DNA from: Hufsiella arboris
GTDB lineage: Bacteria; Bacteroidota; Bacteroidia; Sphingobacteriales; Sphingobacteriaceae
Assembly: GCF_009834875.1 (NCBI RefSeq)
Contig: NZ_WVHT01000003.1
Location: 62,001-126,000, forward strand
Length of the DNA: 64,000 nucleotides
Direction of reading: 5' to 3'
In this document: in pieces, positions 6,497 to 53,330 of the stretch
Layout of the letters: each line of letters starts with the position of its first letter
Numbering within the stretch: the stretch's first letter is position 1
Made by a program: the position numbers and the translations under genes
Notes under the pieces: model-generated
Seen by the model: the letters and a program-made list of their open reading frames with translations, nothing else
The model's database searches: none
What the model was told of the DNA's origin: nothing

Positions 6497-8203
6497 ATGA
6501 ACCAAAACTTAGTTCTTGGAATTGATTACGGAACAGATTCTGTGCGTTCCATCCTTGTCGATGCCAGCAATGGCAGCGAGATTTCTTCAGCTGTATTCTT
6601 TTATCCACGCTGGAAAAAAGGCCTTTATTGCGAGCCTGGCCTTAATCAATTCAGGCAGCATCCGCTTGATTATGTAGAAGGCCTGGAGGCAACGATTAAA
6701 GAATGCATACAGAAAGCCGGCCCGGAAGCCGCGGCAAACGTTAGGGCGATTTCGATAGATACAACAGGATCAACGCCGGTAGCGGTCGACAGTTCGGGGA
6801 CTCCTCTGGCCTTGTTGCCAGAGTTTGCAGAAAATCCGAACGCAATGTTTGTCCTTTGGAAAGATCACACATCTGTAAAAGAAGCTGGCGAAATAAACAA
6901 TCATGCGACGAAATTTGATATAAATTATTTACAGTTTGTTGGTGGAATTTACTCTTCGGAATGGTTTTGGGCTAAGCTGTTACACATTTTAAGAATCGAC
7001 GAAAAAGTAAGAGAAGCCTGCAGCTCGTGGGTAGAACATTGCGATTGGATTCCATTTCTGCTTACCGGCGGAAACGAATCCTCTCAAATTAAGCGAGGCA
7101 TTTGCGCTGCCGGCCATAAGGCATTATGGGCCGAAGAATTTAAGGGTTTGCCGCCGGACGAGTTTTTTTCATCGCTTGATCCGCTATTGGCGTGCTTCAC
7201 AGAAAAATTGTTCACTTCTGTTTATACATCAAGCGAACAAGCCGGACATTTAAGCGAGGAATGGGCGGAAAAACTCGGACTCTCCACTGATATAACAGTT
7301 GGAATCGGCGCTTTCGACGCTCATATGGGTGCTGTCGGCGGTCAAATTGAGCCGTATCATCTAAGCAAAGTTATGGGAACTTCTACCTGCGATATGCTCG
7401 TAGCCCCTTCCGCCGAAGTTGATGGTGTACTTGTTGGCGGAATATGCGGGCAGGTACCGGGGTCCGTTATTCCGGGAATGATGGGAATGGAAGCCGGGCA
7501 ATCAGCATTTGGCGACACGTATGCCTGGTTCAGGAAAATCTTAGCTTGGCCGCTGGAAAATTTATTGTCGCAATCAAATGTAATTGATGGCGAAACCGCG
7601 AGTCGGCTTACAGAAGAAATCAATCATAAGATCATTTCCGAATTAAGTATCCAGGCGGCTAAAATTCCGCTTTCTGAGAACGACGAGCTGGCGATTGACT
7701 GGTTAAACGGAAGGCGTACGCCCGATGCCAATCAATTGCTTAAAGGAGCATTGTTTGGTCTTAATTTAGGCACTGATGCTCCGCGTATTTTCAGGGCACT
7801 CGCGGAAGCTACCTGCTTTGGTGCCAAAAGAATAGTTGATCGGTTCAATGAACAAGGAGTTCCTGTAAAAGGTCTGATCGGTCTTGGTGGCGTGGCAAAA
7901 AAATCATCGTTTATCATGCAGATGATGGCAGATGTAATGAATATGCCGATAAAAATCCACAGATCCGAACAAACCTGTGCGGCGGGTGCCGCTATGTTCG
8001 CGGCAACAGTAGCCGGTCTGTATCCAACTGTTGAAGATGCGATGGAAAATATGGGGCAGGGATTCGAGGCGGAATATCACCCGGATAAAGAAAGAGTCGG
8101 TGTTTATGCAAACAGATACCGGAAATTTATTATGTTATCCGATGATATAGAAAATCATATCATGGAAAAAAACGGAAAAACATATACCAATGAGTCAGTT
8201 TAA
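6497..8203 (+). CDS. araB: L-ribulokinase (FGGY family)
   Basis: A 568-residue FGGY-family kinase that phosphorylates L-ribulose to L-ribulose 5-phosphate with ATP. The N-terminal ATPase-fold signature LGIDYGTDSVRSILVD is at residues 5-20 and the second domain contains GLGGVAKKSSFIMQMMAD. AAGHKALW and GTSTCDM are typical of ribulokinases. Length matches bacterial AraB (about 560). It is the first gene of araB-araD-araA; its 3' end overlaps araD by 14 nt, which suggests coupled translation. Expression is probably AraR-controlled through operator 3 directly before the ATG. Confidence 0.96.
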   Translation: MNQNLVLGIDYGTDSVRSILVDASNGSEISSAVFFYPRWKKGLYCEPGLNQFRQHPLDYVEGLEATIKECIQKAGPEAAANVRAISIDTTGSTPVAVDSSGTPLALLPEFAENPNAMFVLWKDHTSVKEAGEINNHATKFDINYLQFVGGIYSSEWFWAKLLHILRIDEKVREACSSWVEHCDWIPFLLTGGNESSQIKRGICAAGHKALWAEEFKGLPPDEFFSSLDPLLACFTEKLFTSVYTSSEQAGHLSEEWAEKLGLSTDITVGIGAFDAHMGAVGGQIEPYHLSKVMGTSTCDMLVAPSAEVDGVLVGGICGQVPGSVIPGMMGMEAGQSAFGDTYAWFRKILAWPLENLLSQSNVIDGETASRLTEEINHKIISELSIQAAKIPLSENDELAIDWLNGRRTPDANQLLKGALFGLNLGTDAPRIFRALAEATCFGAKRIVDRFNEQGVPVKGLIGLGGVAKKSSFIMQMMADVMNMPIKIHRSEQTCAAGAAMFAATVAGLYPTVEDAMENMGQGFEAEYHPDKERVGVYANRYRKFIMLSDDIENHIMEKNGKTYTNESV

Positions 8204-40657: not shown

Positions 40658-40748
40658 TGTCTCTTCAACTCGTCTTGTTGGCCAGGTAGCAACAGCCAAA
40701 ACAAAGCAATGCGAAAGCCTGTTTACAGTGTTGGTCAAACCGGATAGT

Positions 40749-41810
40749 ATGCAGTTAGATTTCCTGGTAAATTCTACCTTACCCCCTTTCGTTAAAAACC
40801 TGATCATCGCAGCTATTGCTATTGTCCTTGGAATTTTAATTAAAATCACCCTACACTATACGTTTAAATTCCTGTTCAAATGGTGGCCCAACTTTTTGAT
40901 TCAAACGATAATTAAACACCTAGCAGGCCCTATTACTTTTTTTATTCCGCTTTTGTTTCTTAACGCGAGCCTAGAATACATGCAGCTGAGTAAAACGGTT
41001 TATCTCGGCTTAAACAAGGCAGTCGAAATCGCTCTTACCGTAAACTTCGCAATTGTTCTAATCCGCATCCTGAACATTGCTGAAGATTATTTTTACCACC
41101 ATTACGATACCAATAAAGACGATAACCTGAGAGAACGGAAAATCCGGACACAGCTTCAGTTTATCCGAAAGATACTCGTTTCTCTTATCGCACTTGTTAC
41201 CGTTGCAATCGTGCTTTTAAGCTTTGAAAGTATGCGAAAAATCGGCACCGGTTTATTAACTGGCGTCGGAATTGGTGGTATAATCATTGGTTTTGCAGCA
41301 CAAAAATCGCTGGGCAACTTACTTGCCGGTTTTCAGATCGCTTTTACACAACCTATTCGTATTGATGATGTTTTAATTGTTGAAGGAGAATGGGGCCGCG
41401 TTGAAGAAATAACATTGACTTATGTCGTAGTAAATATCTGGGATCAGCGCAGATTGATTTTACCAATCACCTATTTTATAGAAAAGCCATTCCAAAACTG
41501 GACCCGTGTATCAGCAGAATTGTTAGGTACGGTTTTTTTATATCTTGACTACGATACGCCCATTCAGCCATTGCGTGAAAAACTGACGGAGCTACTAAGT
41601 AATCATCCATTATGGGATAAACGAGTAAATGTAGTTCAGGTGACAGACAGCAAACCCAATACCATAGAAGTCCGCTTTTTAATGAGCGCGCGCAACTCTT
41701 CGCAAGCGTTTGATCTTCGATGCGATGTACGGGAAAATCTCCTTGCATTTATACGTGAAAGTTTTCCCGACAGCTTACCTAAAAATCGCGTGTTACTGCA
41801 AAAAGAATGA
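40749..41810 (+). CDS. MscS-family mechanosensitive channel
   Basis: About 353 residues. There are three to four N-terminal TM segments, then the pore helix TM3 (GIGGIIIGFAAQKSLGNLLAGFQIAF) and the cytosolic beta domain (RIDDVLIVEGEWGRVEEITLTYVVVNIWDQRRLILPITYFIEKPFQNWTR). It probably opens under membrane tension to release solutes. The frame also allows a GTG start at 40728, seven codons earlier; I prefer the ATG. Convergent with the HAD-ATPase fusion, only 3 nt between stops. Confidence 0.9.
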   Translation: MQLDFLVNSTLPPFVKNLIIAAIAIVLGILIKITLHYTFKFLFKWWPNFLIQTIIKHLAGPITFFIPLLFLNASLEYMQLSKTVYLGLNKAVEIALTVNFAIVLIRILNIAEDYFYHHYDTNKDDNLRERKIRTQLQFIRKILVSLIALVTVAIVLLSFESMRKIGTGLLTGVGIGGIIIGFAAQKSLGNLLAGFQIAFTQPIRIDDVLIVEGEWGRVEEITLTYVVVNIWDQRRLILPITYFIEKPFQNWTRVSAELLGTVFLYLDYDTPIQPLREKLTELLSNHPLWDKRVNVVQVTDSKPNTIEVRFLMSARNSSQAFDLRCDVRENLLAFIRESFPDSLPKNRVLLQKE

Positions 41811-41813
41811 TCA

Positions 41814-43520
41814 TCAAGCCGGCGCGGTGTACCTTTCTTCTACCAGCTTACTAATTGCTTCCCGGGATTTTGTTACGTCACTTTCGCTTTCTTCGATGTG
41901 TTCTGTAAGCCGTGACAGCTCATCATCGTTGACGAATTCTTTAAACCACTTTGAGTAATCTTTATTCCTTAAGTGGAAAAGCCATGTCTCATCATCTACG
42001 CCTTTAGAAAGCTGAACAAATGTATTCAGGTTGAACGCTTTCAAATTCAATTTACCTTCCGGCCCCTTAAAATAGAAACTGTCCGGCCCCATATCGCCTG
42101 TCGCGTATTTTTTACGGTGGCGTTGCATTACTTTTAATGGAACGGAACTCTTAATCAATACGGGAGCACTTGAGGTATCTGCATTCCAAACAAGTGCTTC
42201 TCCTTGCGGCAGATTATGCGACTGGTCGTAATGAAAGTTTATGTTACGTATTTCCGCGAATGATTGGATAGTTTTTTCGGCGTCCTTTCCCAAGGCAACG
42301 ATTGTATCAACTTCTTTTACAAGAGTTTCATTTATCAGTTCAGGCTTGGTAGTGATAGCAAAAAAGCGGGTGAAGTGCGCAGGCATGTTAAAATAAGTTG
42401 CACTGGCTTCCTTTGGAATCAGGTGATGAGCTTCGTCGAAAATAAACCAATGCGGATGACCGTAATTTTTGCGCATGTCAAGCAAAGTATTAAGCAATTT
42501 TAAAAAGAAAGCAGGCCTGTCTTCCAGGGGAATTGCAAGCGTACAAATCACACAGCTCTGTGAGGTATTATCCAAAACTTTAACAATTTGTTCAAGTTCA
42601 GGAACCTGGCTGGAAGATCCGAGTTGAATAGGTCCCTGCATGTCCAGATAATCGCCCTCCGGATCAATCAGGCAGAACTGATAATTTTTAGCTGCCAGAT
42701 TTTCAATAAAAGCACTGGTAAGAGTCGATTTTCCACCGCCGGAAGTCCCGGCAAGAAGCACACCTCTGCTATACGGACTAAGCATAAACGGCTCATTGTC
42801 GGCAGATGTGCCAATTTGAATATGGTGGCGTGAAAGTAATGATTCTTTGTCGGCCAAATCATTTTCAATAATATTTTCAATCAATTCACTAACACCACGT
42901 CCGTGATCTTCTTTGGTTGTAAAATCACATAAAGTTTTTACTGATTCTAACGCATTAGACACTGCAACAGAGCATTCTGTTGCCGCCATCATCGCCGTAT
43001 CGTTTTCCGCGTCGCCCACGGCAACCACGTTATGCATAGAATATCCGAGCTCGCAAACGGCTTCTGACAACCCTTTTTCTTTATTGATGCCCGCCGGCAA
43101 AACCATCACAGCGCCTTTATTAAAAATTACCTGCTTCTCGATTCCAAGTTTCTGAATGGCTTCTAAAACAGTAAATTGGTTGGGCTCCCAGGTGGCGACA
43201 ATCACACGCCCAACTGACAACGGGGAAATATTCCTTTCTCTTAAATAGGCAACGAATTCGGGTGGAGGAGCATCGCCTAACAGGCGCTCTTCGAGCGTTC
43301 CGGGGCGATAAATTAGTGCACCATTCTCCGCAACAATGCGATCAAATAAATTGTATTCAGGAAACAAAGCCTTTAACTCATCCAGCTCCCTTCCGGTCAC
43401 CAGGATAAGTTTCCGGCCAGATGCTTTGAGCGATTTTAAAGATTCGATAGTTTCTTGCGAAACGCGTTCATGATGAGCAAGCGTGCCATCGTAATCTGTA
43501 GCTAAAACATGATAGCGCAT
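41814..43520 (-). CDS. HAD-IIB phosphatase fused to a HerA/DUF87-like P-loop ATPase
   Basis: A 568-residue two-domain protein. Residues 1 to about 215 are a Cof/HAD-IIB-type phosphatase: nucleophile Asp9 and Asp11 in DYDGT, VTGRE at 41-45, Lys in INKEKG and GDAEND at 169-174. Residues about 230-470 are a HerA/DUF87/VirB4-like ATPase: Walker A GTSGGGKST at 258-266, LIDPEGD at 284-290 and Walker B WFIFDEAHH at 358-366. The last 100 residues look helical, with an acidic segment. All catalytic residues of both halves seem intact. No signal peptide or TM segment. HAD-IIB enzymes usually act on phosphosugars; the role of the ATPase is unknown. It appears to be a single-gene unit. Confidence 0.88.
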   Translation of the reverse strand: MRYHVLATDYDGTLAHHERVSQETIESLKSLKASGRKLILVTGRELDELKALFPEYNLFDRIVAENGALIYRPGTLEERLLGDAPPPEFVAYLRERNISPLSVGRVIVATWEPNQFTVLEAIQKLGIEKQVIFNKGAVMVLPAGINKEKGLSEAVCELGYSMHNVVAVGDAENDTAMMAATECSVAVSNALESVKTLCDFTTKEDHGRGVSELIENIIENDLADKESLLSRHHIQIGTSADNEPFMLSPYSRGVLLAGTSGGGKSTLTSAFIENLAAKNYQFCLIDPEGDYLDMQGPIQLGSSSQVPELEQIVKVLDNTSQSCVICTLAIPLEDRPAFFLKLLNTLLDMRKNYGHPHWFIFDEAHHLIPKEASATYFNMPAHFTRFFAITTKPELINETLVKEVDTIVALGKDAEKTIQSFAEIRNINFHYDQSHNLPQGEALVWNADTSSAPVLIKSSVPLKVMQRHRKKYATGDMGPDSFYFKGPEGKLNLKAFNLNTFVQLSKGVDDETWLFHLRNKDYSKWFKEFVNDDELSRLTEHIEESESDVTKSREAISKLVEERYTAPA

Positions 43521-43581: not shown

Positions 43582-44394
43582 TTACTGGACTATCAGTTTT
43601 CTCGCAGATGCAGTATGGGCACTAAAATAACCTAAAGCGCCATTAGAGATATTTGAAGGCGGATTTGACGGTGTAACTCCGCCGCCGGGACCGCGTGCTT
43701 CCTGGCTTTGTAATGTGTACCAGTACGTGAAAACATTTGGATCGATACATTGCATTTCTACCACAATGCTGTCTCTGGGTTTAAATTCCTGTTCATCTTC
43801 ATCGTTATCCGAAAACCCTGGATAAAGCTCGGTAAGCATTTTATTTCCGTTAGTTAGCCGGTCGTTTGCCACAAAAATCTGTTTATTTTGTTTGCCGTTG
43901 ATCGATAACAGGAAACGGTATTGATCGGCCGTTTTTGCAGGATCATGGTATTGTGCGATAACACCGTCATATTTTCGACTTCCAAAGCTAATGTCGGTTA
44001 AACTTAACGTATCAAGTTTCACAGGGGACGGCATAACTGAAATTGCTGTATAAGTTTGCCCTTCTATATCGACGTTCAATGTGTAAGTGCGACCTGGAAC
44101 ACCTCTGTATGTTACCGAATAAATTCCCGGAGAGTTCTCCCGGAAAGTTATTATGTTTTTTTGATTGTCCGTAACCGTAACTTTTGCTCCTGAAACGGCA
44201 GGGAAATTATTGCTGTCGGTAAACATAACTGAACGGCTGATTTTAACCTTTTGTGTTGCCATGATATTGCTCAGGTTTCCTTCGATCACTAACTGTGAGC
44301 CTGATTGATCTACGTCTACATCAATCACCTTTTCACAGGAACTGAATACAAGTACTGCGAGGCAGAACGCCAATAATCTTATTACGTTTGTCAT
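43582..44394 (-). CDS. DUF4249 lipoprotein
   Basis: About 270 residues. The signal peptide ends in the lipobox VFSSC, giving a lipoprotein with acidic residues after the Cys (CEKVIDVDVD). The mature part has the DUF4249 layout: a beta-sandwich start (QLVIEGNLSNIMATQKVKISRSV), PAVSGAKVTVTDNQ, a peptidase-regulatory-like middle, and YWYTLQSQEA near the end. The open frame runs to 44490, but the ATG at 44392-44394 directly precedes the signal peptide and lies 4 nt after the TonB-receptor stop. DUF4249 proteins commonly pair with such receptors, so it is probably its surface partner. Function unknown. Confidence 0.9.
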   Translation of the reverse strand: MTNVIRLLAFCLAVLVFSSCEKVIDVDVDQSGSQLVIEGNLSNIMATQKVKISRSVMFTDSNNFPAVSGAKVTVTDNQKNIITFRENSPGIYSVTYRGVPGRTYTLNVDIEGQTYTAISVMPSPVKLDTLSLTDISFGSRKYDGVIAQYHDPAKTADQYRFLLSINGKQNKQIFVANDRLTNGNKMLTELYPGFSDNDEDEQEFKPRDSIVVEMQCIDPNVFTYWYTLQSQEARGPGGGVTPSNPPSNISNGALGYFSAHTASARKLIVQ

Positions 44395-44398
44395 TATA

Positions 44399-46738
44399 TC
44401 AAAATTTAAAGTTCCAGGTAACAGATGGAATAATGCCGAATAACGCCACCTGCACAGCTTCGGTTGTTCCTGGTTTTGTTTCGCTATCACGAAAACTGAT
44501 TGAATAAGGGTTTTTCCGGTTTAGCGCATTATAAACTCCGAACGACCAGCTAGAGTGGAATTTTTTATTCTCTTTACCTTCTAGTGTCGCGCTTAAATCA
44601 AGGCGGCTGGTATAAGGCATGCGATTGGCGTTACGTGAGGTATAGTAGTACGTTGTCATGCCCCCGATTTCATATTTCCCAGCTGGATAGGTAACCGCAT
44701 TTCCCGTTGAATAGATAAAACTTCCAGCAAAGTTCCAGCGTTTACTGAGGTTGTAAACGCCTGTTACGGATAGATCATGAAGCCTGTCGTACCGGGCAGG
44801 GAAGTAATTACCATTATTTATTTTATCGAATTTCCGTTCTGTTCGGGCAAGCGTATAACTGATCCAACCAACCAATTTGCCTGCATTTTTTTTTGCATAT
44901 AGTTCTAAACCGTACGATCTTCCCTTGCCGTACAATAGCTGGGATTCCACATCAGCGTTGGCAATCAGCTGTGCGCCATCACGGTAGTCAATTTGATTTT
45001 GCAGCCACTTATAATAGGTTTCCACCGAAAACTCCCAGGCATTGCCAGCAAGATTTTTAAAATAGCCCGCTGACACTTGGTCTGCCAATTCTGGTTTGAT
45101 ATTATTACTTGACAAAACGTATTGGTCTGTAGGCGTACTGGACCCCGAATTACTAAGAATATGGATATTCTGAGTGTTACGATTGTATGATAGCTTAATT
45201 GAATTCTGATCATTCATACTAAAGCTAGCTGAGACTCGCGGTTCCAGGTAAAAATAAGACTTTCCAAATTCGTGATCATCATAAGTTTGAGTGCTTACAG
45301 GAAATCCGCTTCCATCATAAGTTTTAAATGTTCCCGGGCCTAACACAGTAAACGAACTAAACCGTGTTCCATAAAGCACGTTCAGCCAATTGGTGATCTG
45401 CCACTCGTCCGACACATAGGCAGCGCCTTCCAGTCCATAACGATATTCGATCGATTGAGAATTAACGCTCGACTGGCCCGTGGTTTCAATATCCGATGGC
45501 TGCAGCCGGTGATGAAGCGCGTTGACACCGAACCGGAGAATATGCTTATTACCGTAATACTGTAAATCTTCTTTTAAATTATAGTCCCTGATCAAAGACT
45601 TCGCCGTGAAATTATTGTTGGTGCTGAACACCCGGATATTGTAATTGTATTTGTTGTAGATTACCGAGGTATTAGAAAAAAGCCGGTCGTTGAATAAATG
45701 GTTGTATCGCAGCGTTGCTGTTGAATTACCCCAGTCGTTATCGAAAAGATTTTTTATCCCCAGGTTGTCCTGGCCGAAGTAACCGGAAAGATAAACCGTG
45801 TTTTTATCGTCAAACCGATAGTTAAACTTAGCGTTTAGGTCGTAAAAATTAAGCGTATTCCCTTTCAGGTCGGGATCCGGTGAGGCTTTTAAAAGAAGAT
45901 CCAGGTAAGTTCGGCGTCCGCTGATCATAAATGAAGACTTATTTTTAACGATCGGGCCTTCAACTTTCAGGCGCGAAGCGATTAACCCGATGCCACCCTG
46001 CACCGAGAAATTCTTCGAATTACCATCATCCATTTTCACATCCAGAACGGAGGATAAGCGTCCACCATATTGCGCCGGCATACCGCCTTTATAAAGATTT
46101 ACATCTTTAATAGCGTCTGAATTAAAAGTGGAAAAAAATCCAAGCAAATGCGAAGAGTTATAAACAGTTGCCTCATCAAGCAAAATGAGGTTTTGATCAG
46201 CTGCGCCGCCACGAACAAAAAAACCGGTATTACCTTCTCCACCGGATTTGACTCCGGGCAATAATTGTATCGTTTTTAGAATATCCTTCTCACCGAACAA
46301 AACGGGAACGCTGGATATTGTCTTCATGTCCAGCTTATCCAGGCCCATCTGCGGACTTCGGATATTTTCTCCCGGGCGATTCTTTGCAGAAATTACTACC
46401 TCCTTTAGTTCGGAAGATGAAGCCAGCTCAATCCTGAGCGCGGTCGATTTATTAAGTGAAATTTTTTGCTGGCTTGTCTGATATCCCACGTAGCTAATAA
46501 AAACGTCGTATTGTGACGGCTTTACAGTGAGAGAAAAGAAACCATATGAATTTGTCGAAGTATTTATTGACGTTGCAGAATCCTTTAAAGTAACTGTGGC
46601 TCCGATCAATGTTTCACCCGTTGACTTGTCACGGACTGTTCCACTAACTGTATAACGCTCCTGGGCCGTTAAAAAATTAGAAAAAGAAATAAAAAGTAAT
46701 GGTAATAAGTATCGGAGAAATCTCAAATTAAACGGCAT
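44399..46738 (-). CDS. TonB-dependent receptor paired with DUF4249
   Basis: A 779-residue outer-membrane receptor. A signal peptide (about 1-25) precedes a carboxypeptidase-regulatory-like domain (about 28-110: YTVSGTVRDKSTGETLIGATV). A plug domain (about 125-235) follows with SVPVLFGEKDILKTIQLLPGVKSGGEGNTGFFVRGGAADQNLILLDEA. The barrel runs to the C-terminal aromatic strand FGIIPSVTWNFKF. The gene is followed by the DUF4249 lipoprotein after a few nucleotides, and a TATTTTTG -7 element is at 46762-46769. The ligand is unknown. This receptor class is distinct from SusC. Confidence 0.92.
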   Translation of the reverse strand: MPFNLRFLRYLLPLLFISFSNFLTAQERYTVSGTVRDKSTGETLIGATVTLKDSATSINTSTNSYGFFSLTVKPSQYDVFISYVGYQTSQQKISLNKSTALRIELASSSELKEVVISAKNRPGENIRSPQMGLDKLDMKTISSVPVLFGEKDILKTIQLLPGVKSGGEGNTGFFVRGGAADQNLILLDEATVYNSSHLLGFFSTFNSDAIKDVNLYKGGMPAQYGGRLSSVLDVKMDDGNSKNFSVQGGIGLIASRLKVEGPIVKNKSSFMISGRRTYLDLLLKASPDPDLKGNTLNFYDLNAKFNYRFDDKNTVYLSGYFGQDNLGIKNLFDNDWGNSTATLRYNHLFNDRLFSNTSVIYNKYNYNIRVFSTNNNFTAKSLIRDYNLKEDLQYYGNKHILRFGVNALHHRLQPSDIETTGQSSVNSQSIEYRYGLEGAAYVSDEWQITNWLNVLYGTRFSSFTVLGPGTFKTYDGSGFPVSTQTYDDHEFGKSYFYLEPRVSASFSMNDQNSIKLSYNRNTQNIHILSNSGSSTPTDQYVLSSNNIKPELADQVSAGYFKNLAGNAWEFSVETYYKWLQNQIDYRDGAQLIANADVESQLLYGKGRSYGLELYAKKNAGKLVGWISYTLARTERKFDKINNGNYFPARYDRLHDLSVTGVYNLSKRWNFAGSFIYSTGNAVTYPAGKYEIGGMTTYYYTSRNANRMPYTSRLDLSATLEGKENKKFHSSWSFGVYNALNRKNPYSISFRDSETKPGTTEAVQVALFGIIPSVTWNFKF

Positions 46739-46919: not shown

Positions 46920-47234
46920 ATGATCATTCAAATAAACACCGACAATAATATTGAAGGCCGGCAGCAAATGGCTGCCCACTACGAGTCAGTTCTTGCGGAT
47001 GCGCTTAGTCGTTTTTCAAGCCAGATAACACGGCTCGAAGTCCACATGAGCGATGAAAACAGTGATAAAAAAGGAACAGATGATAAACGATGCATGCTGG
47101 AGGCAAGAGTTGAAGGCTTACAACCAATTGCTGTAACTGCACAATCCGGCACATTGCATGAAGCAGTTAGTGCGGCTGTTTCTAAATTAAAGCATGCCCT
47201 GGACAGCGCAATCGGGAAACTAAAACAATACTAG
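46920..47234 (+). CDS. HPF/RaiA-like ribosome-associated protein
   Basis: A 104-residue protein. The beta-alpha-beta-beta-beta-alpha layout (QINTDNNIEG..., RLEVHMSDENSDKKGTDDKRCMLEARVEGLQPIAVTAQSGTLHEAVSAAVSKLKHALD) matches the S30AE fold of hibernation-promoting factors. The short form would bind the 30S decoding centre in stationary phase. The match is recognisable but divergent, so the call is moderately sure. Single gene with a terminator shared with the convergent tldD. Confidence 0.7.
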   Translation: MIIQINTDNNIEGRQQMAAHYESVLADALSRFSSQITRLEVHMSDENSDKKGTDDKRCMLEARVEGLQPIAVTAQSGTLHEAVSAAVSKLKHALDSAIGKLKQY

Positions 47235-47344: not shown

Positions 47345-48979
47345 TTAAATCTTTCTTCCGGTGTTTATTACACTTACGCCGCTGAATTTGGTGGTAGCGC
47401 AGCCATGGGACACCGCGCTGATCTGGCCCGGCTGCCCCTTCCCGTCAAAGAAGGATCCGCCCAAACGATAGTCCTTCTCATCACAAGAGCCAGCACATGA
47501 ATTCCAAAACTCCTGGGTATTCGCCTGGTAAGCTGCATCCCGAACCATGCCGACAACTTTCCCGGCTTTAATCTCATAACATAGCTGACTGCTGAACTGA
47601 AAATTATAGCGCTGCTGATCGATGGAATATGAATTTCTGCCAAGCATATATAAACCTTTGTCTATGCCTTTTATCATTTCTGCAGACGTAAGCGGCGCTT
47701 TACCCGGCTGAAGCGAAACATTCGGCATTCGCTGAAACTGAACGCTGCTCCAGCTATCCGCATAGCAACAACCCTGCGACTCATTGAGGCCAAGAATATG
47801 TGCCTGATCACGGATGGTTTGATAGTTTACTAAAATGCCGTCTTTAATCAGATCCCACTTGCCGCACTTTACGCCTTCATCGTCATACCCTACGGCACCT
47901 AACGATCCTGATTGTGTTTTATCTGCAACGATATTCACCTGTTTGCTTCCAAAATTAAATTTCTTGGATTCCCACTTATCAAGTGTCAGAAAGCTGGTTC
48001 CTGCGTAATTTGCTTCGTAACCCAATACCCGATCTAGTTCGGTGGGATGACCGACAGATTCGTGAATCGTAAGGAACAGATGAGTCGGATCAAGCACAAG
48101 GTCATATTTACCTGGTTCAACTGGTTTTGCCTGCAATTTTTCTCCAACATGAACCGCAGCCTGTTTCGCATCTTCGATCATGTCGTAACGCTTTTTGTAG
48201 AGCGTTACCAGCCCTTTAATTTTTTCGTTTTCGTCCGGGATCATGTATTCATATCCCATACCCATTGGCGAACTAAGCGCATCGCGTGTTTGAAAACTGC
48301 CGTTTGATTTGTCAATTTTGGTGACTGTAAACGTTGGCCATATTCGATGTATGTCCTGATCAATGTACGACCCGTCTGTCGATGCAAAATATTTCTGTTC
48401 GTTAATAAGGAATAAGGTTGAGTTAATGAAACTCGCGCCACCTTCTTTCGCAGCGGCATTAACTCCAAGCAACAGATCGACCTTTTCCTTAACCGGGATC
48501 TCAAATCCGTTTTTTTCAATCGGAGTTTTCCAGCTTACTTCTCCATAGCCTTTTTGCGAAGCAAGCTGTACCGGTTCTGTCAAAAGCTTTGCGTTCACCT
48601 TCGCAATTTGTACTGCCAGCTCTGTTGCCTTTGCAATGCTGTCGTTATCCAGCTTGTCGGTCGACGCAAATCCCCAGCAGCCGTTTGCGATTACCCGAAT
48701 CCCCATTCCATACGATTCCGTATTAGCGATATTCTGTACTCGGTTTTCCCTTGTCGAAATCGACTGGTTTAAATATCGGCCAATACGAACATCAGCGTAT
48801 GAAGCGCCTTTAGATCGCGCCGCATTTAATACGATATCGGCCATTTTTTTCTTCAGTATGGCATCAACCGGCTCTGGCAAATAATCCAGCGGAACTGTTT
48901 TTCCCAACGCTGAGATATCAGGCATCATCGTAGCGCCAACTCCCATTCCAGCCAGGTATAAAAAGTTTCTTCTTTTCAT
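47345..48979 (-). CDS. tldD: TldD-family metalloprotease, copy 2 (Tat-type signal)
   Basis: A 544-residue TldD-type peptidase. The zinc motif HExxxH reads HESVGHPTELDR, followed by YEANYAGTSFLTLDKW; a C-terminal Cys in VSHGCATTKFSG is the likely third ligand. The N-terminus MKRRNFLYLAGMGVGATMM has a twin-arginine-like RRxFL signal, so it is probably exported. With TldE, TldD forms a heterodimeric protease known for degrading unfolded peptides and maturing modified peptides. Most downstream gene of a four-gene operon; a paralog is at 51693-53330. Confidence 0.92.
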   Translation of the reverse strand: MKRRNFLYLAGMGVGATMMPDISALGKTVPLDYLPEPVDAILKKKMADIVLNAARSKGASYADVRIGRYLNQSISTRENRVQNIANTESYGMGIRVIANGCWGFASTDKLDNDSIAKATELAVQIAKVNAKLLTEPVQLASQKGYGEVSWKTPIEKNGFEIPVKEKVDLLLGVNAAAKEGGASFINSTLFLINEQKYFASTDGSYIDQDIHRIWPTFTVTKIDKSNGSFQTRDALSSPMGMGYEYMIPDENEKIKGLVTLYKKRYDMIEDAKQAAVHVGEKLQAKPVEPGKYDLVLDPTHLFLTIHESVGHPTELDRVLGYEANYAGTSFLTLDKWESKKFNFGSKQVNIVADKTQSGSLGAVGYDDEGVKCGKWDLIKDGILVNYQTIRDQAHILGLNESQGCCYADSWSSVQFQRMPNVSLQPGKAPLTSAEMIKGIDKGLYMLGRNSYSIDQQRYNFQFSSQLCYEIKAGKVVGMVRDAAYQANTQEFWNSCAGSCDEKDYRLGGSFFDGKGQPGQISAVSHGCATTKFSGVSVINTGRKI

Positions 48980-48990
48980 TTCTTAATAAG

Positions 48991-50307
48991 TTAAACAGCG
49001 TCTGACAACGAGGTAAAAGTAAAATCACGGATTTTCATTGGCGGCACCACGATGTTACCGCTTCTGACCGGCTTACCCAGCTCCTCAACATTATTCAGCA
49101 TGATGACCGGGCTTTCATTAAAACGAAAATTCTTGATAGGATATTTGATCTGGCCGTTCTCAATGTAAAATGTGCCATCGCGTGTTAAGCCTGTCTGCAG
49201 CACAGTCTGCGGATCGACCATCCTGATATACCAAAACCTGGTAACCAGGATGCCTTTTTCAGTTTCTTTTATCAGGTCTTCCAGGGATTTGGTGCCCCCT
49301 TCCATGATAACACGAAAAGCGCCAGGTAGGGGTTTTACATTTTTTTGCTGCGCCCAGTAACGCGAATAACTGAGATTTTTCACAACGCCTTTATCAACCC
49401 AAATTGTTTTTTTCAAGGGCATCCCTTCATTATTCCAGGTTGCTGAAGGCAGCTCAGCGTTAAGAGGATCTGAGTAAATGGTTACTTTTTCATTAAACAA
49501 TTGTTCCCCCAAACGTGTCTGGCCACCTTTTTTACTCATAAAACTTCGGCCTTCTTCTGCGCTGCGGGCATCAAAACCTCTGAACAAACCGCCAAGCATG
49601 TCAGCAGCTGCTAACGGCTCTAAGATCACGGTATATTTGCCGGGCTCTATCGCTTTAGCATTGACAGAACTTAAAGCTTTACCTGCTGCTACAGTGCTCA
49701 GGGTTTTAGGGTCAAATTTTCTTACGTCATTGTAACTTACGTTGACATAGCCTGATCCCTTTCCGTCCTTGGTTCGTAGCGTTACAGAAAAATCGATATC
49801 TGTTGAGCTGTTATATGCAAACAGTCCTTTGCTGTTCATAATCGCCCGGAACGCCGTCGAATTTTCAAGAAAGCCTGCTGCTTCCAGGTTTTTGTCTTTC
49901 GCTATCTGCAAACTTTGAGCTACCGCCTCGGCTCTCTTTTCAGGATTGATTGCTGCTGTATCGCTATTGAAAGTTATTGATTCAGTAAAATTTTCCGGCC
50001 CCAGAGGTGGCATATATTCCGAGTCCTCAGGTGCGAGTTTAGCCAGTTCTTCAGAACGCCGGACTACTTTTTCCAATGATGCATCGTCGAATTCGTTTAT
50101 TGTTGCCACACCGGTCCTTTTGCCGTAGGTCGAACTTACTTCCAGGCTCATGCTGCTGTTTTCGCCCGCCGTTGATACAGCATTTCTGGCGTAACGAATA
50201 TTTCCACCTGTGCTGCCTTCAAGGCCCAACTCGCATGCGTCGGCTTTTGAGTAGTTTAAAACTTTTTTTAGTAGTGCCTGAGCTTCTTCTTTTTTAAGGA
50301 TCGCCAT
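48991..50307 (-). CDS. tldE: TldE/PmbA-family protein, copy 2
   Basis: A 438-residue TldE-type subunit without the HExxxH motif, as expected for the non-catalytic partner. Family features: NIRYARNAVSTAGENSSMSLEVSS at the N-terminus, EPGKYTVILEPLAAADML, GFDARSAEEGRSFM, and QTGLTRDGTFYIENGQIKYPIKNFRFNESPVIMLNNVEELG. No signal peptide. It lies between its paralog (22-nt gap) and tldD copy 2 (11-nt gap). Very similar to the neighbouring copy, clearly a duplicate. Confidence 0.92.
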   Translation of the reverse strand: MAILKKEEAQALLKKVLNYSKADACELGLEGSTGGNIRYARNAVSTAGENSSMSLEVSSTYGKRTGVATINEFDDASLEKVVRRSEELAKLAPEDSEYMPPLGPENFTESITFNSDTAAINPEKRAEAVAQSLQIAKDKNLEAAGFLENSTAFRAIMNSKGLFAYNSSTDIDFSVTLRTKDGKGSGYVNVSYNDVRKFDPKTLSTVAAGKALSSVNAKAIEPGKYTVILEPLAAADMLGGLFRGFDARSAEEGRSFMSKKGGQTRLGEQLFNEKVTIYSDPLNAELPSATWNNEGMPLKKTIWVDKGVVKNLSYSRYWAQQKNVKPLPGAFRVIMEGGTKSLEDLIKETEKGILVTRFWYIRMVDPQTVLQTGLTRDGTFYIENGQIKYPIKNFRFNESPVIMLNNVEELGKPVRSGNIVVPPMKIRDFTFTSLSDAV

Positions 50308-50329
50308 AATTCTTTAATCTGGTAATTTG

Positions 50330-51664
50330 TTAAACCGCATCTGAAAGGGAAGTAAATGTAAAGTCCCGGATTTTCATCGGCGGTATCAAATAACTCCGGT
50401 ACGATTCAACACTGATGCTCCGTTCCGCTTTACCAAGTGCTTCGATATTGTTAAGCATGATAACCGGACTTTCATTAAACCGCATATTTTTTATCGGGAA
50501 CTGGATCTTGCCGTTTTCAATGTAAAATGTACCGTCGCGTGTAAGTCCGGTTAATAGTAATGTTTGCGGATCGACCATGCGGATATACCAAAGTCGCGAA
50601 ACAAGAATGCCCTTCTCTGTGCTTTTGATAAGCTCTTCCAAAGAAGCACTTCCGCCCTGCATAATCACATTCGAGGGGCCGGGAACCGGCTTAACATTTT
50701 TTTGTTGCGCCCAGTAACGTGAATAAGCGAGATTTTTAACTACTCCTTTATCGATCCAGTTAATTTTTTCTAAAGGCTGACCTTCACTGTTCCAGGTAGG
50801 AGCCGGCATATCCGGGTTAAACGGATCGGAATAAATTGTAACCTGCTCATCCATTAATTTTTCGCCCAAACGTGTTCCGCCGCCTGGCTTGCTCATGAAA
50901 CTTCGTCCCTCGTCAGCACTGCGTGCGTCAAATCCGCGAAACATATTTTCGAGCATATACGTTGCGGCAACAGGTTCCAGGATAACGGTATATTTTCCCG
51001 GCTCAATAGCTTTAGCATTTATCGATCCGTTTGCTTTTGAAGCGGCAATCTTAGTTGCTGTCAATGTATCAAGCTTGTTTACATCATTAAAACCGCGGGC
51101 TGCATATCCTGAACCTGTCCCTGCCTGGTTACGTGTCGTCACTGAGAAAATAACGTCGGTAGATTTGTTATAAGCAAACAATCCTTTACTGTTCATTACG
51201 GCTGTAAATCCGTTACTGTTTTCCAGGAAACCTGCGGCCTCAAGCTTGGCCTCCTTTGCCGCGATAATGCTTTTACTCACCAGTTCGGCCCGTGTGTCGG
51301 GGGTCATGGCCGCGGTTGCGGGAACATAGGTTATTGCTTCCTTAAAATCTGATGGGCCGAGCATCGGCATCACTTCAGGATTTTCCGGCGCCAGTTTAGC
51401 CAGCTCTTCCGAACGGCTTACCACTTTTTGCAGAGAAGCATCATCGAATTCATTAATCGTTGAAAAAGCACTTTTCTTGCCAAATCTTGAAGAGACCGAC
51501 AAGTTTAAAGTACTGACATCGCCGGCAGTTGAAACTGCATTGCGGGCATATCGTATATTTCCACCTTCCGTTCCGGATAAAGTGGCTTCGCATTCATCAG
51601 CTTTGGAATAGGTTAAAACTTTTTTCAGAAGCGCTTGTGCAGCTTCTTTCGTTAAAATCGCCAT
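50330..51664 (-). CDS. tldE: TldE/PmbA-family protein, copy 1
   Basis: A 444-residue paralog of the downstream TldE, with the same landmarks (NIRYARNAVSTAGD, EPGKYTVILEPVAATYML, GFDARSADEGRSFM, LTGLTRDGTFYIENGKIQFPI). A small insertion (ERSISVESYRSYLIPP) near the C-terminus distinguishes it. No HExxxH and no signal peptide. It follows tldD copy 1 by 28 nt. Confidence 0.92.
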   Translation of the reverse strand: MAILTKEAAQALLKKVLTYSKADECEATLSGTEGGNIRYARNAVSTAGDVSTLNLSVSSRFGKKSAFSTINEFDDASLQKVVSRSEELAKLAPENPEVMPMLGPSDFKEAITYVPATAAMTPDTRAELVSKSIIAAKEAKLEAAGFLENSNGFTAVMNSKGLFAYNKSTDVIFSVTTRNQAGTGSGYAARGFNDVNKLDTLTATKIAASKANGSINAKAIEPGKYTVILEPVAATYMLENMFRGFDARSADEGRSFMSKPGGGTRLGEKLMDEQVTIYSDPFNPDMPAPTWNSEGQPLEKINWIDKGVVKNLAYSRYWAQQKNVKPVPGPSNVIMQGGSASLEELIKSTEKGILVSRLWYIRMVDPQTLLLTGLTRDGTFYIENGKIQFPIKNMRFNESPVIMLNNIEALGKAERSISVESYRSYLIPPMKIRDFTFTSLSDAV

Positions 51665-51692
51665 GTGTTGTTAGCTAAAAAGGTAAAGAGCA

Positions 51693-53330
51693 CTAAATTT
51701 TACGAGCCGTATTAATAACATTCACCCCGTTAAAACGAGTCGTTGGACAGCCATGCGATACTGCATTTGATTGTCCAGGCTGACCTTTTCCGTCATTAAA
51801 AGCCCCTCCAAGACGATAATCACTTGCATCAGCAAGGTCAGTACATGAATTCCAGAACTCCTGTGTATTTGCCTGGTAAGCGACATCGTTTAACATTCCA
51901 ACGATCTTGCCTTGTTTGATCTCATAAAAAGTCTGCCCCCCAAACTGAAAATTATAGCGTTGCTGGTCGATCGAGAAAGATCCGTCGCCGACGATATATA
52001 TTCCTTTTTCTACATTTTTAATCATATCGTCAACACTTCTTTTTTCCTTGCCTGGCTGAAGCGACACATTAGGCATTCGCTGAAACTGGACATCCTGCCA
52101 GCTTTGGGCATAACAACATCCCTGCGAATGATCCAGTCCAATGATATGCGCCTGATCCCGGATAGCCTGATAGTTTACCAAAACGCCATCTTTGATTAAG
52201 TCCCATTTACCACACTGCACGCCCTCGTCGTCATAGCCTACAGCGCCTAACGAACCTGGTTGAGTTTTATCAGCAACCACATTTACGAGCTTGTTTCCGA
52301 AATTAAATTTCTTCGATTGCCATTTATCAAGTGTTAAAAAGCTTGTGCCTGCGTAATTGGCTTCGTAGCCCAGCACGCGGTCAAGTTCCGTTGGGTGGCC
52401 GACAGATTCATGAATGGTCAACCATAAATGCGACGGGTCAAGAATGAGATCATACTTACCAGGCTCAACACTTTTGGCGGATATCTTTTCGGCCGCGTCT
52501 TTCGTTGCATTCTTAACATCCTCCATAATGTCGTAACGTTGCTTATACCGTGTTACGATTCCTTTTACTTTTTCTTCTTCTTTTGGCGTAAGGTATTCAT
52601 AGCCCATTCCCATCGGAGAGCTTAGCGAGCGCCGGGTTTGAAATTTGCCTGAGGTTTTGTCAATTTTAGTAACCACAAAACTTGGGTAAATCCTGTGAAT
52701 GTCCTGGTCGATATAGGAACCGTCAGTTGATGCGAAATACTTCTGTTCATTGATCGAGAAGAGCATCGAGTTAACAAAATTGGCACCGCCGTTTTTCGCT
52801 TCCGCATTTACAGCAAGCAATAAATCGGTCTTTTCCTGTACAGGGACCTCGAATGGATTTTTTTCAATCGGCGTTTTCCAGCTAACTTCACCAAAGCCCT
52901 TTTGCGGCGCCAGTTCAACCGGCGTACCCTGAATTTTGGCGTTAGCTTTGGCAACAGCTACCGCACGTTCTGCAGTTTTGGCAACCTCGTCTTTGGTTAC
53001 ATTGTTGCTTGCAGCAAAACCCCAGCAGCCATTTGCAATAACGCGAATTCCGACACCGAATGATTCGGTGTTAGCAACATTTTGAACCCGGTTTTCACGT
53101 GTTATCACAAACTGGTTAAGGTATCTGCCGATGCGTACATCAGCGTAGGTAGCCCCTTTTGATTTGGCAGCGTTCATGGCAATGTCGGCAATTTGCTTTT
53201 TCAGGCCTACATCCATGCCGTCGTTTAATGCGGCAAGCGGATCAATCGGATTTCCGAAAAGCTCCATGTTTGGGAGCATGAGGGCGCCAAAGCCAACTCC
53301 CGACAAATAAATAAAGTCTCTTCTTTTCAT
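51693..53330 (-). CDS. tldD: TldD-family metalloprotease, copy 1 (Tat-type signal)
   Basis: A 545-residue paralog of the TldD at 47345-48979. It keeps the zinc motif HESVGHPTELDR and the Cys in VSHGCPTTRFNG. The N-terminus MKRRDFIYLSGVGFGALMLP again carries a twin-arginine-like motif before a hydrophobic stretch. First gene of the D-E-E-D operon. Substrate unknown; no small peptide gene was recognised beside it. Confidence 0.92.
   Translation of the reverse strand: MKRRDFIYLSGVGFGALMLPNMELFGNPIDPLAALNDGMDVGLKKQIADIAMNAAKSKGATYADVRIGRYLNQFVITRENRVQNVANTESFGVGIRVIANGCWGFAASNNVTKDEVAKTAERAVAVAKANAKIQGTPVELAPQKGFGEVSWKTPIEKNPFEVPVQEKTDLLLAVNAEAKNGGANFVNSMLFSINEQKYFASTDGSYIDQDIHRIYPSFVVTKIDKTSGKFQTRRSLSSPMGMGYEYLTPKEEEKVKGIVTRYKQRYDIMEDVKNATKDAAEKISAKSVEPGKYDLILDPSHLWLTIHESVGHPTELDRVLGYEANYAGTSFLTLDKWQSKKFNFGNKLVNVVADKTQPGSLGAVGYDDEGVQCGKWDLIKDGVLVNYQAIRDQAHIIGLDHSQGCCYAQSWQDVQFQRMPNVSLQPGKEKRSVDDMIKNVEKGIYIVGDGSFSIDQQRYNFQFGGQTFYEIKQGKIVGMLNDVAYQANTQEFWNSCTDLADASDYRLGGAFNDGKGQPGQSNAVSHGCPTTRFNGVNVINTARKI

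Follow-up and report, generated by a model that had tools for sequence, protein, structure and literature searches.

The protein described here is a conserved variant assembled from known kinds of domain and is not a categorically new system. Its closest known systems are the HAD-IIB (C2B) phosphatases, which include the Cof type, the archaeal phosphoglycolate phosphatase (TIGR01487, 1wr8, 1kyt), the sucrose-phosphatase subfamily, and YbiV (1rlm). A further likeness is to the HerA/DUF87 ATPases of the FtsK-HerA superfamily (SsoHerA 4d2i, 8j4u). HerA/FtsK ATPases are familiar as DNA or protein pumps. The roles of residues K154, D176, E356, and R381 of SsoHerA have been described, and in S. islandicus HerA the substitution R381K abolishes ATPase activity (PMC4351679). 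The third motif of the FtsK-HerA superfamily comprises an arginine finger and a polar sensor residue, mostly Gln (PMC11703096). The last likeness is to DUF5752 (PF19027), known as two-repeat proteins encoded in trehalose/MscS clusters; a literature search found no paper naming this domain, and none describing the fusion architecture or its function. An earlier note on this DNA had proposed an undescribed activity. That holds insofar as no description of the function was found, but the family is conserved and its annotated members already carry the labels 'HAD-IIB family hydrolase', 'HAD hydrolase family protein', or 'HAD family hydrolase'.

Architecture of the fusion gene

The window, i.e., the whole stretch of 64,000 nucleotides of Hufsiella arboris DNA that was analyzed, includes the following features.

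41814..43520, minus strand: fusion gene, whole reading frame; 568 amino acids, HAD-IIB / HerA-like / DUF5752-like, with the ATG at 43520
42861..43520, minus strand: HAD-IIB phosphatase domain, residues 1-220 (Pfam Hydrolase_3, TIGR01484; D9xD11, T42, K147, and GDxxND with D170 and D174)
42135..42845, minus strand: minimal HerA/FtsK-like P-loop ATPase core, residues 226-462 (DUF87; K264, D286, E363; HerA comparison)
41814..42125, minus strand: C-terminal domain, predicted helical, residues 466-568, resembling one DUF5752 (PF19027) repeat (hhalign)
40728..41810, plus strand: MscS-type mechanosensitive channel, convergent neighbor (Pfam MS_channel_2nd); an association only, not claimed as one unit with the fusion gene
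43582-44490, minus strand: DUF4249 gene, immediate upstream neighbor of the fusion gene, with a TonB receptor behind it

The single chain of 568 residues reported in the earlier note, with its DYDGT, GDAEND, GTSGGGKST, and FIFDEAHH motifs, was recovered in full and lies on the minus strand, which holds the open frame across 41814-43520; the plus strand of this interval is rich in stops. The GC content of the gene (~0.42) is similar to that of the flanking DNA and thus does not point to recent transfer, and a scan for promoters and terminators at the gene returned nothing above shuffled sequences. Collection of homologs and their neighbors, as the earlier note had suggested, yielded 14 full-length homologs, which together with the window protein form a 15-member alignment that spans four phyla. 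These homologs are 40-54% identical and retain all three parts along with the HAD and Walker motifs. Since the layout is common to all 14 homologs and DUF87 is matched by 15 of 15 members, the fusion is not a product of chance. Mean pairwise identity among the 15 members is 55% for the HAD domain, 51% for the C-terminal domain, and 37% for the ATPase, and the distances of the domains co-vary (HAD-HerA, r=0.87; HAD-C-terminal, r=0.78). Structure models built from an input of two sequences (the window protein and L001) reached a mean pLDDT of 43.2 for the whole protein and of 48.5 when limited to residues 221-568, values too poor for a comparison of folds.

The phosphatase domain

The first 214 residues match Pfam Hydrolase_3 (E 1e-30; 107.8 bits against a curated cut-off of 20.9), and the NCBIfam model for HAD-SF-IIB, TIGR01484, is passed with 94.8 bits against a cut-off of 41.8. 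HAD motifs I-IV are all present, as D9-Y-D-G-T13, T42, K147, and GDAEND (D170, D174). D9, D11, K147, D170, and D174 are invariant in 15 of 15 members, while position 42 is T in 14 of them and S in one. The model for archaeal phosphoglycolate phosphatase, TIGR01487, aligns over residues 5-213 in a single stretch. What separates the window protein from the described HAD-IIB phosphatases, apart from its two further fused domains, is that its HAD domain falls below the cut-offs of all substrate-specific NCBIfam models, including TIGR00099 (Cof; 100.8 versus 137), TIGR01487 (91.3 versus 122.75), and TIGR01482 (sucrose-phosphate phosphatase; 83.2 versus 107.15). The Cof-type assignment of the earlier note is thus borne out at the level of HAD-IIB, with its four motifs, but not at the level of the Cof model itself.

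Identity with trehalose-phosphatase (OtsB) was considered and ruled out, given that PF02358 (Trehalose_PPase) is absent among the Pfam matches up to E=1; the host genome encodes an otsA-otsB fusion gene at another locus, which lowers the likelihood further. Trehalose-6-phosphate itself is therefore not the favored substrate.

A plasmid of Nostoc sp. C052 encodes a HAD-only protein (L016:6001-6666) that stops where the ATPase would start and is 65% identical to the HAD domain of the Synechococcus fusion. Among 72,556 plasmid records, no ATPase part or C-terminal part without a HAD domain was found, with the exception of one weak partial match (35% coverage, E 6e-3). Given the HAD-only relative, the stronger conservation of the HAD domain, and the lack of the other parts without it in those records, the central activity of the family seems to be that of the phosphatase.

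The ATPase domain

From residue 251 the window protein matches Pfam DUF87 (E 5.8e-7; 30.3 bits against a curated cut-off of 23.2), and the best match among the members reaches 3.4e-11. The Walker A motif GTSGGGKST (K264) and the Walker B motif FIFDEAHH (E363) are present. All 15 members have K264, D286, and E363, which align with the Walker A Lys, the beta-2 Asp, and the Walker B Glu of SsoHerA (K154, D176, and E356, with numbering counted on the 4d2i alignment) as well as with those of other HerA proteins. These invariant residues, together with dN/dS values of 0.03-0.12 in the four pairs where these were computable, indicate purifying selection on the ATPase half, which is thus kept by selection. 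An unconserved ATPase half, which the earlier note had named as counting against its proposal, is therefore not what the family displays.

The differences from HerA concern the third motif. In SsoHerA, the helix that precedes strand 5 (GRKFG) carries R381, and SQRP contains the sensor Gln. In the fusion family, a minimal core of ~235 amino acids, the Walker B Glu and the Ser/Thr of strand 5 are 27 residues apart, versus 35 in SsoHerA, and the shortened segment before strand 5 contains no conserved Arg in the 15-member alignment, with no arginine at the position of SsoHerA R381. SQRP/TQRP is replaced by TxxP, in the form T(T/V/I)(K/E/R/Q/H/S/T)P, with both the Q and the R positions variable. 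As judged by sequence alignment, the finger/sensor motif has been lost. Three other arginines, R231, R335, and R350, are invariant in all members, and one of them could serve as a substitute arginine finger. The description of this half as a HerA/VirB4-like ATPase is therefore sound for DUF87 and for the Walker A and B motifs, but does not extend to the third motif of the FtsK-HerA superfamily.

The C-terminal domain

Residues 466-568 form a third, well-conserved block that was overlooked in the first reading, and the two low-confidence structure models agree in predicting it as helical. PF19027 (DUF5752) is weakly matched by 11 of 15 members (best 2e-4); the window protein itself lies under the Pfam threshold. 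In hhalign comparisons with stand-alone DUF5752 proteins, the domain aligned with repeat 2 at a probability of 95 (E 3.4e-8, a single comparison) and with repeat 1 at a probability of 88. The C-terminal domain and DUF5752 share the pattern KA.NL..F......V......H......DYS.W......D..LA, but the fusion carries only one repeat and carries it fused.

Seven stand-alone DUF5752 loci were examined in Bacteroidota (L066-L072), where the genes are tightly clustered with those for TreT, OtsA/OtsB, and MscS-type channels. In most of the seven, TreT-like, OtsA, and OtsB genes lie beside DUF5752 (Pfam-confirmed where tested), and MscS-type genes adjoin five of them (three Pfam-confirmed, the other two judged only from the likeness of their sequences). 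Three of the clusters include an OtsB-like phosphatase as a gene of its own (two Pfam-confirmed, one a fragment) and, by the logic of gene fusion, this was counted in favor of the reading preferred below. DUF5752 matches within Bacteroidota proteins of ~1000 amino acids were set aside as probable chance matches.

Distribution and genomic context

Among 296 evenly sampled Bacteroidota genomes, the fusion gene was found in one, the host itself. Of 400 genomes from the family to which the host belongs, 12 gave a match to the C-terminal profile, namely the host, ten genomes with full-length open frames, and one (G464) with a decayed remnant; the eleven genomes other than the host all belong to one other genus. 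The remnant (L060, G464:C2, ~7581-7802) consists of the C-terminal domain only, with ~76 codons and an in-frame stop, and some other species of that genus carry intact copies. The single same-genus genome found (G296) gave no match, and in a comparison for an empty site only aconitase was conserved there, so that a clean site of insertion could not be delimited. Further full-length carriers are a Bacteroidetes MAG and, from the plasmid collection, entries for Synechococcus PCC 7502, Nonomuraea, Sinorhizobium, Aminobacter, Paraburkholderia, Caballeronia, and Agrobacterium. The carriers are thus scattered over Bacteroidota, a cyanobacterium, an actinomycete, rhizobia, and Burkholderiaceae, and this patchy distribution may reflect horizontal spread and loss of the gene. 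Phage records yielded HAD-only matches and no full-length relative, and viral contigs searched with the alignment of the family gave no relative.

The neighborhoods of the homologs are given as observed co-occurrence, from a small and uneven sample, and include stress and sugar genes. The Aminobacter homolog lies with genes for GT4, a GDE-type glucosidase, and GT20, and the Caballeronia homolog is immediately preceded by a pair of codirectional GT4 genes, the closer of which is separated from it by 15 bp. Usp, CBS, P-type ATPases, phosphoketolase, and acetate kinase surround the Agrobacterium homolog, and the Bacteroidota relatives occur with Usp, BON, Hsp20, phosphoketolase, GH130, carbohydrate phosphorylase, and PfkB, with MscS in one.

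In the window itself there is no sugar-metabolism neighbor of the fusion gene. The mscS gene ends at 41810, 3 bases from the end of the convergent fusion gene at 41814. On the other side, the minus-strand interval 43582-46738 holds the DUF4249 gene, which overlaps a short gene for a TonB receptor whose N-terminal domain is carboxypeptidase-regulatory-like; because the listed frames overlap by ~90 bases, the true start of the DUF4249 gene is probably further in. The fusion gene had been described as standing alone between an MscS channel and a TonB receptor, which is accurate for the window only, and even there the DUF4249 gene intervenes, while its relatives reside in stress/carbohydrate islands. 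A few kb away, 46920-47234 (plus strand) encodes a small S30AE/HPF-like protein of the ribosome-hibernation type (Pfam 8.5e-8). The interval 47345-53330 (minus strand) encodes two tandem TldD/PmbA-type metallopeptidase pairs in mirrored order (544+438 and 444+545 amino acids), apparently a duplicated TldD-TldE unit.

Alternative explanations

The earlier note had also suggested a hexameric HerA-type motor that translocates DNA or polypeptide under a phosphatase checkpoint. The DUF87 match throughout the family and the alignment of its Walker A, beta-2 Asp, and Walker B residues with those of HerA are what such a motor would display, but the helix that carries the arginine finger is shortened and devoid of a conserved Arg, TQRP has become TxxP, the N-terminal region of HerA is replaced by the HAD domain, which leaves little sequence ahead of the P-loop, and neither a nuclease partner nor a defense gene adjoins the fusion gene. 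With the third motif missing, and given the effect of R381K on S. islandicus HerA, a canonical ring motor is unlikely on sequence grounds, and the checkpoint motor as a whole, weakened by these losses, is distinctly unlikely. Loss of the finger/sensor motif would in turn suit a general phosphatase in which the ATPase half is a scaffold or an ATP-binding relic without regulation, and this half is indeed the least conserved of the three. Nonetheless, its Walker A G/K residues, D286, and E363 do not vary among the 15 members and its dN/dS is low (~0.03-0.12), from which it follows that a relic is unlikely.

The P-loop domain might instead be a small-molecule kinase, with the chain acting as a bifunctional switch in which kinase and phosphatase work on the same small molecule, as in PFKFB. 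The ATPase profile does match adenylylsulfate kinases over its first ~80 residues; however, that match is limited to the P-loop, strand 2, and what comes after strand 2, the ASCE catalytic Glu (E363) and downstream HerA-like strands are retained, and in Pfam it is DUF87 that scores above its cut-off and APS_kinase that scores below, leaving a kinase switch very unlikely. A last candidate is an anti-phage or mobile-element defense effector related to MADS mad8 and HerA defense ATPases. In PADLOC, the window protein matches MADS mad8 best (2e-9, over 252-448), as a model that 15 of 15 members match, and their scattered occurrence, in some cases on plasmids or megaplasmids, would fit such a role. 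Yet this similarity is confined to the ATPase part, and the fusion gene's eight window neighbors gave no PADLOC match, so that likeness to mad8 is all that connects the locus to a MADS system. The homologs' neighbors are likewise stress and metabolic genes with no recognizable defense genes among them, and no full-length relative occurs in the phage records or scanned viral contigs. A defense role is accordingly highly improbable.

Proposed function and implications

Among the readings of the earlier note, an ATP-gated phosphatase is still the most economical, with phosphatase and ATP-site motifs conserved across phyla under what appears to be purifying selection. In the form preferred here, to which we give an even chance, the protein would be a phosphatase for a sugar- or glycosyl-phosphate, associated with stress and controlled by the binding of ATP, and its DUF5752-like part would dock or sense. 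The intact motifs suggest that the N-terminal HAD-IIB domain may hydrolyze a sugar- or glycosyl-phosphate formed in the carbohydrate or compatible-solute metabolism of stressed cells. The HerA-derived P-loop domain in the middle would bind ATP, possibly with slow hydrolysis, and would serve as a built-in energy-charge switch or as a remodeler of the phosphatase and not as a ring translocase. From the gene neighborhoods, the C-terminal DUF5752-like domain may dock on partner glycosyltransferase or trehalose-pathway proteins, or sense their state.

A more far-reaching version is tentative and on balance doubtful. It holds that a HerA-derived ATPase stripped of the ring-motor machinery acts as an intramolecular sensor of ATP or energy charge that gates a sugar-phosphate phosphatase, with the DUF5752-like domain as a tether to trehalose/compatible-solute synthesis under stress, which would make the fusion a new class of allosteric enzyme. 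If true, the HerA/FtsK fold would, after loss of the ring-motor finger, have been reused as a metabolic regulator, and the family would offer a first functional handle on DUF5752 and a link to the sugars of osmotic and desiccation stress.
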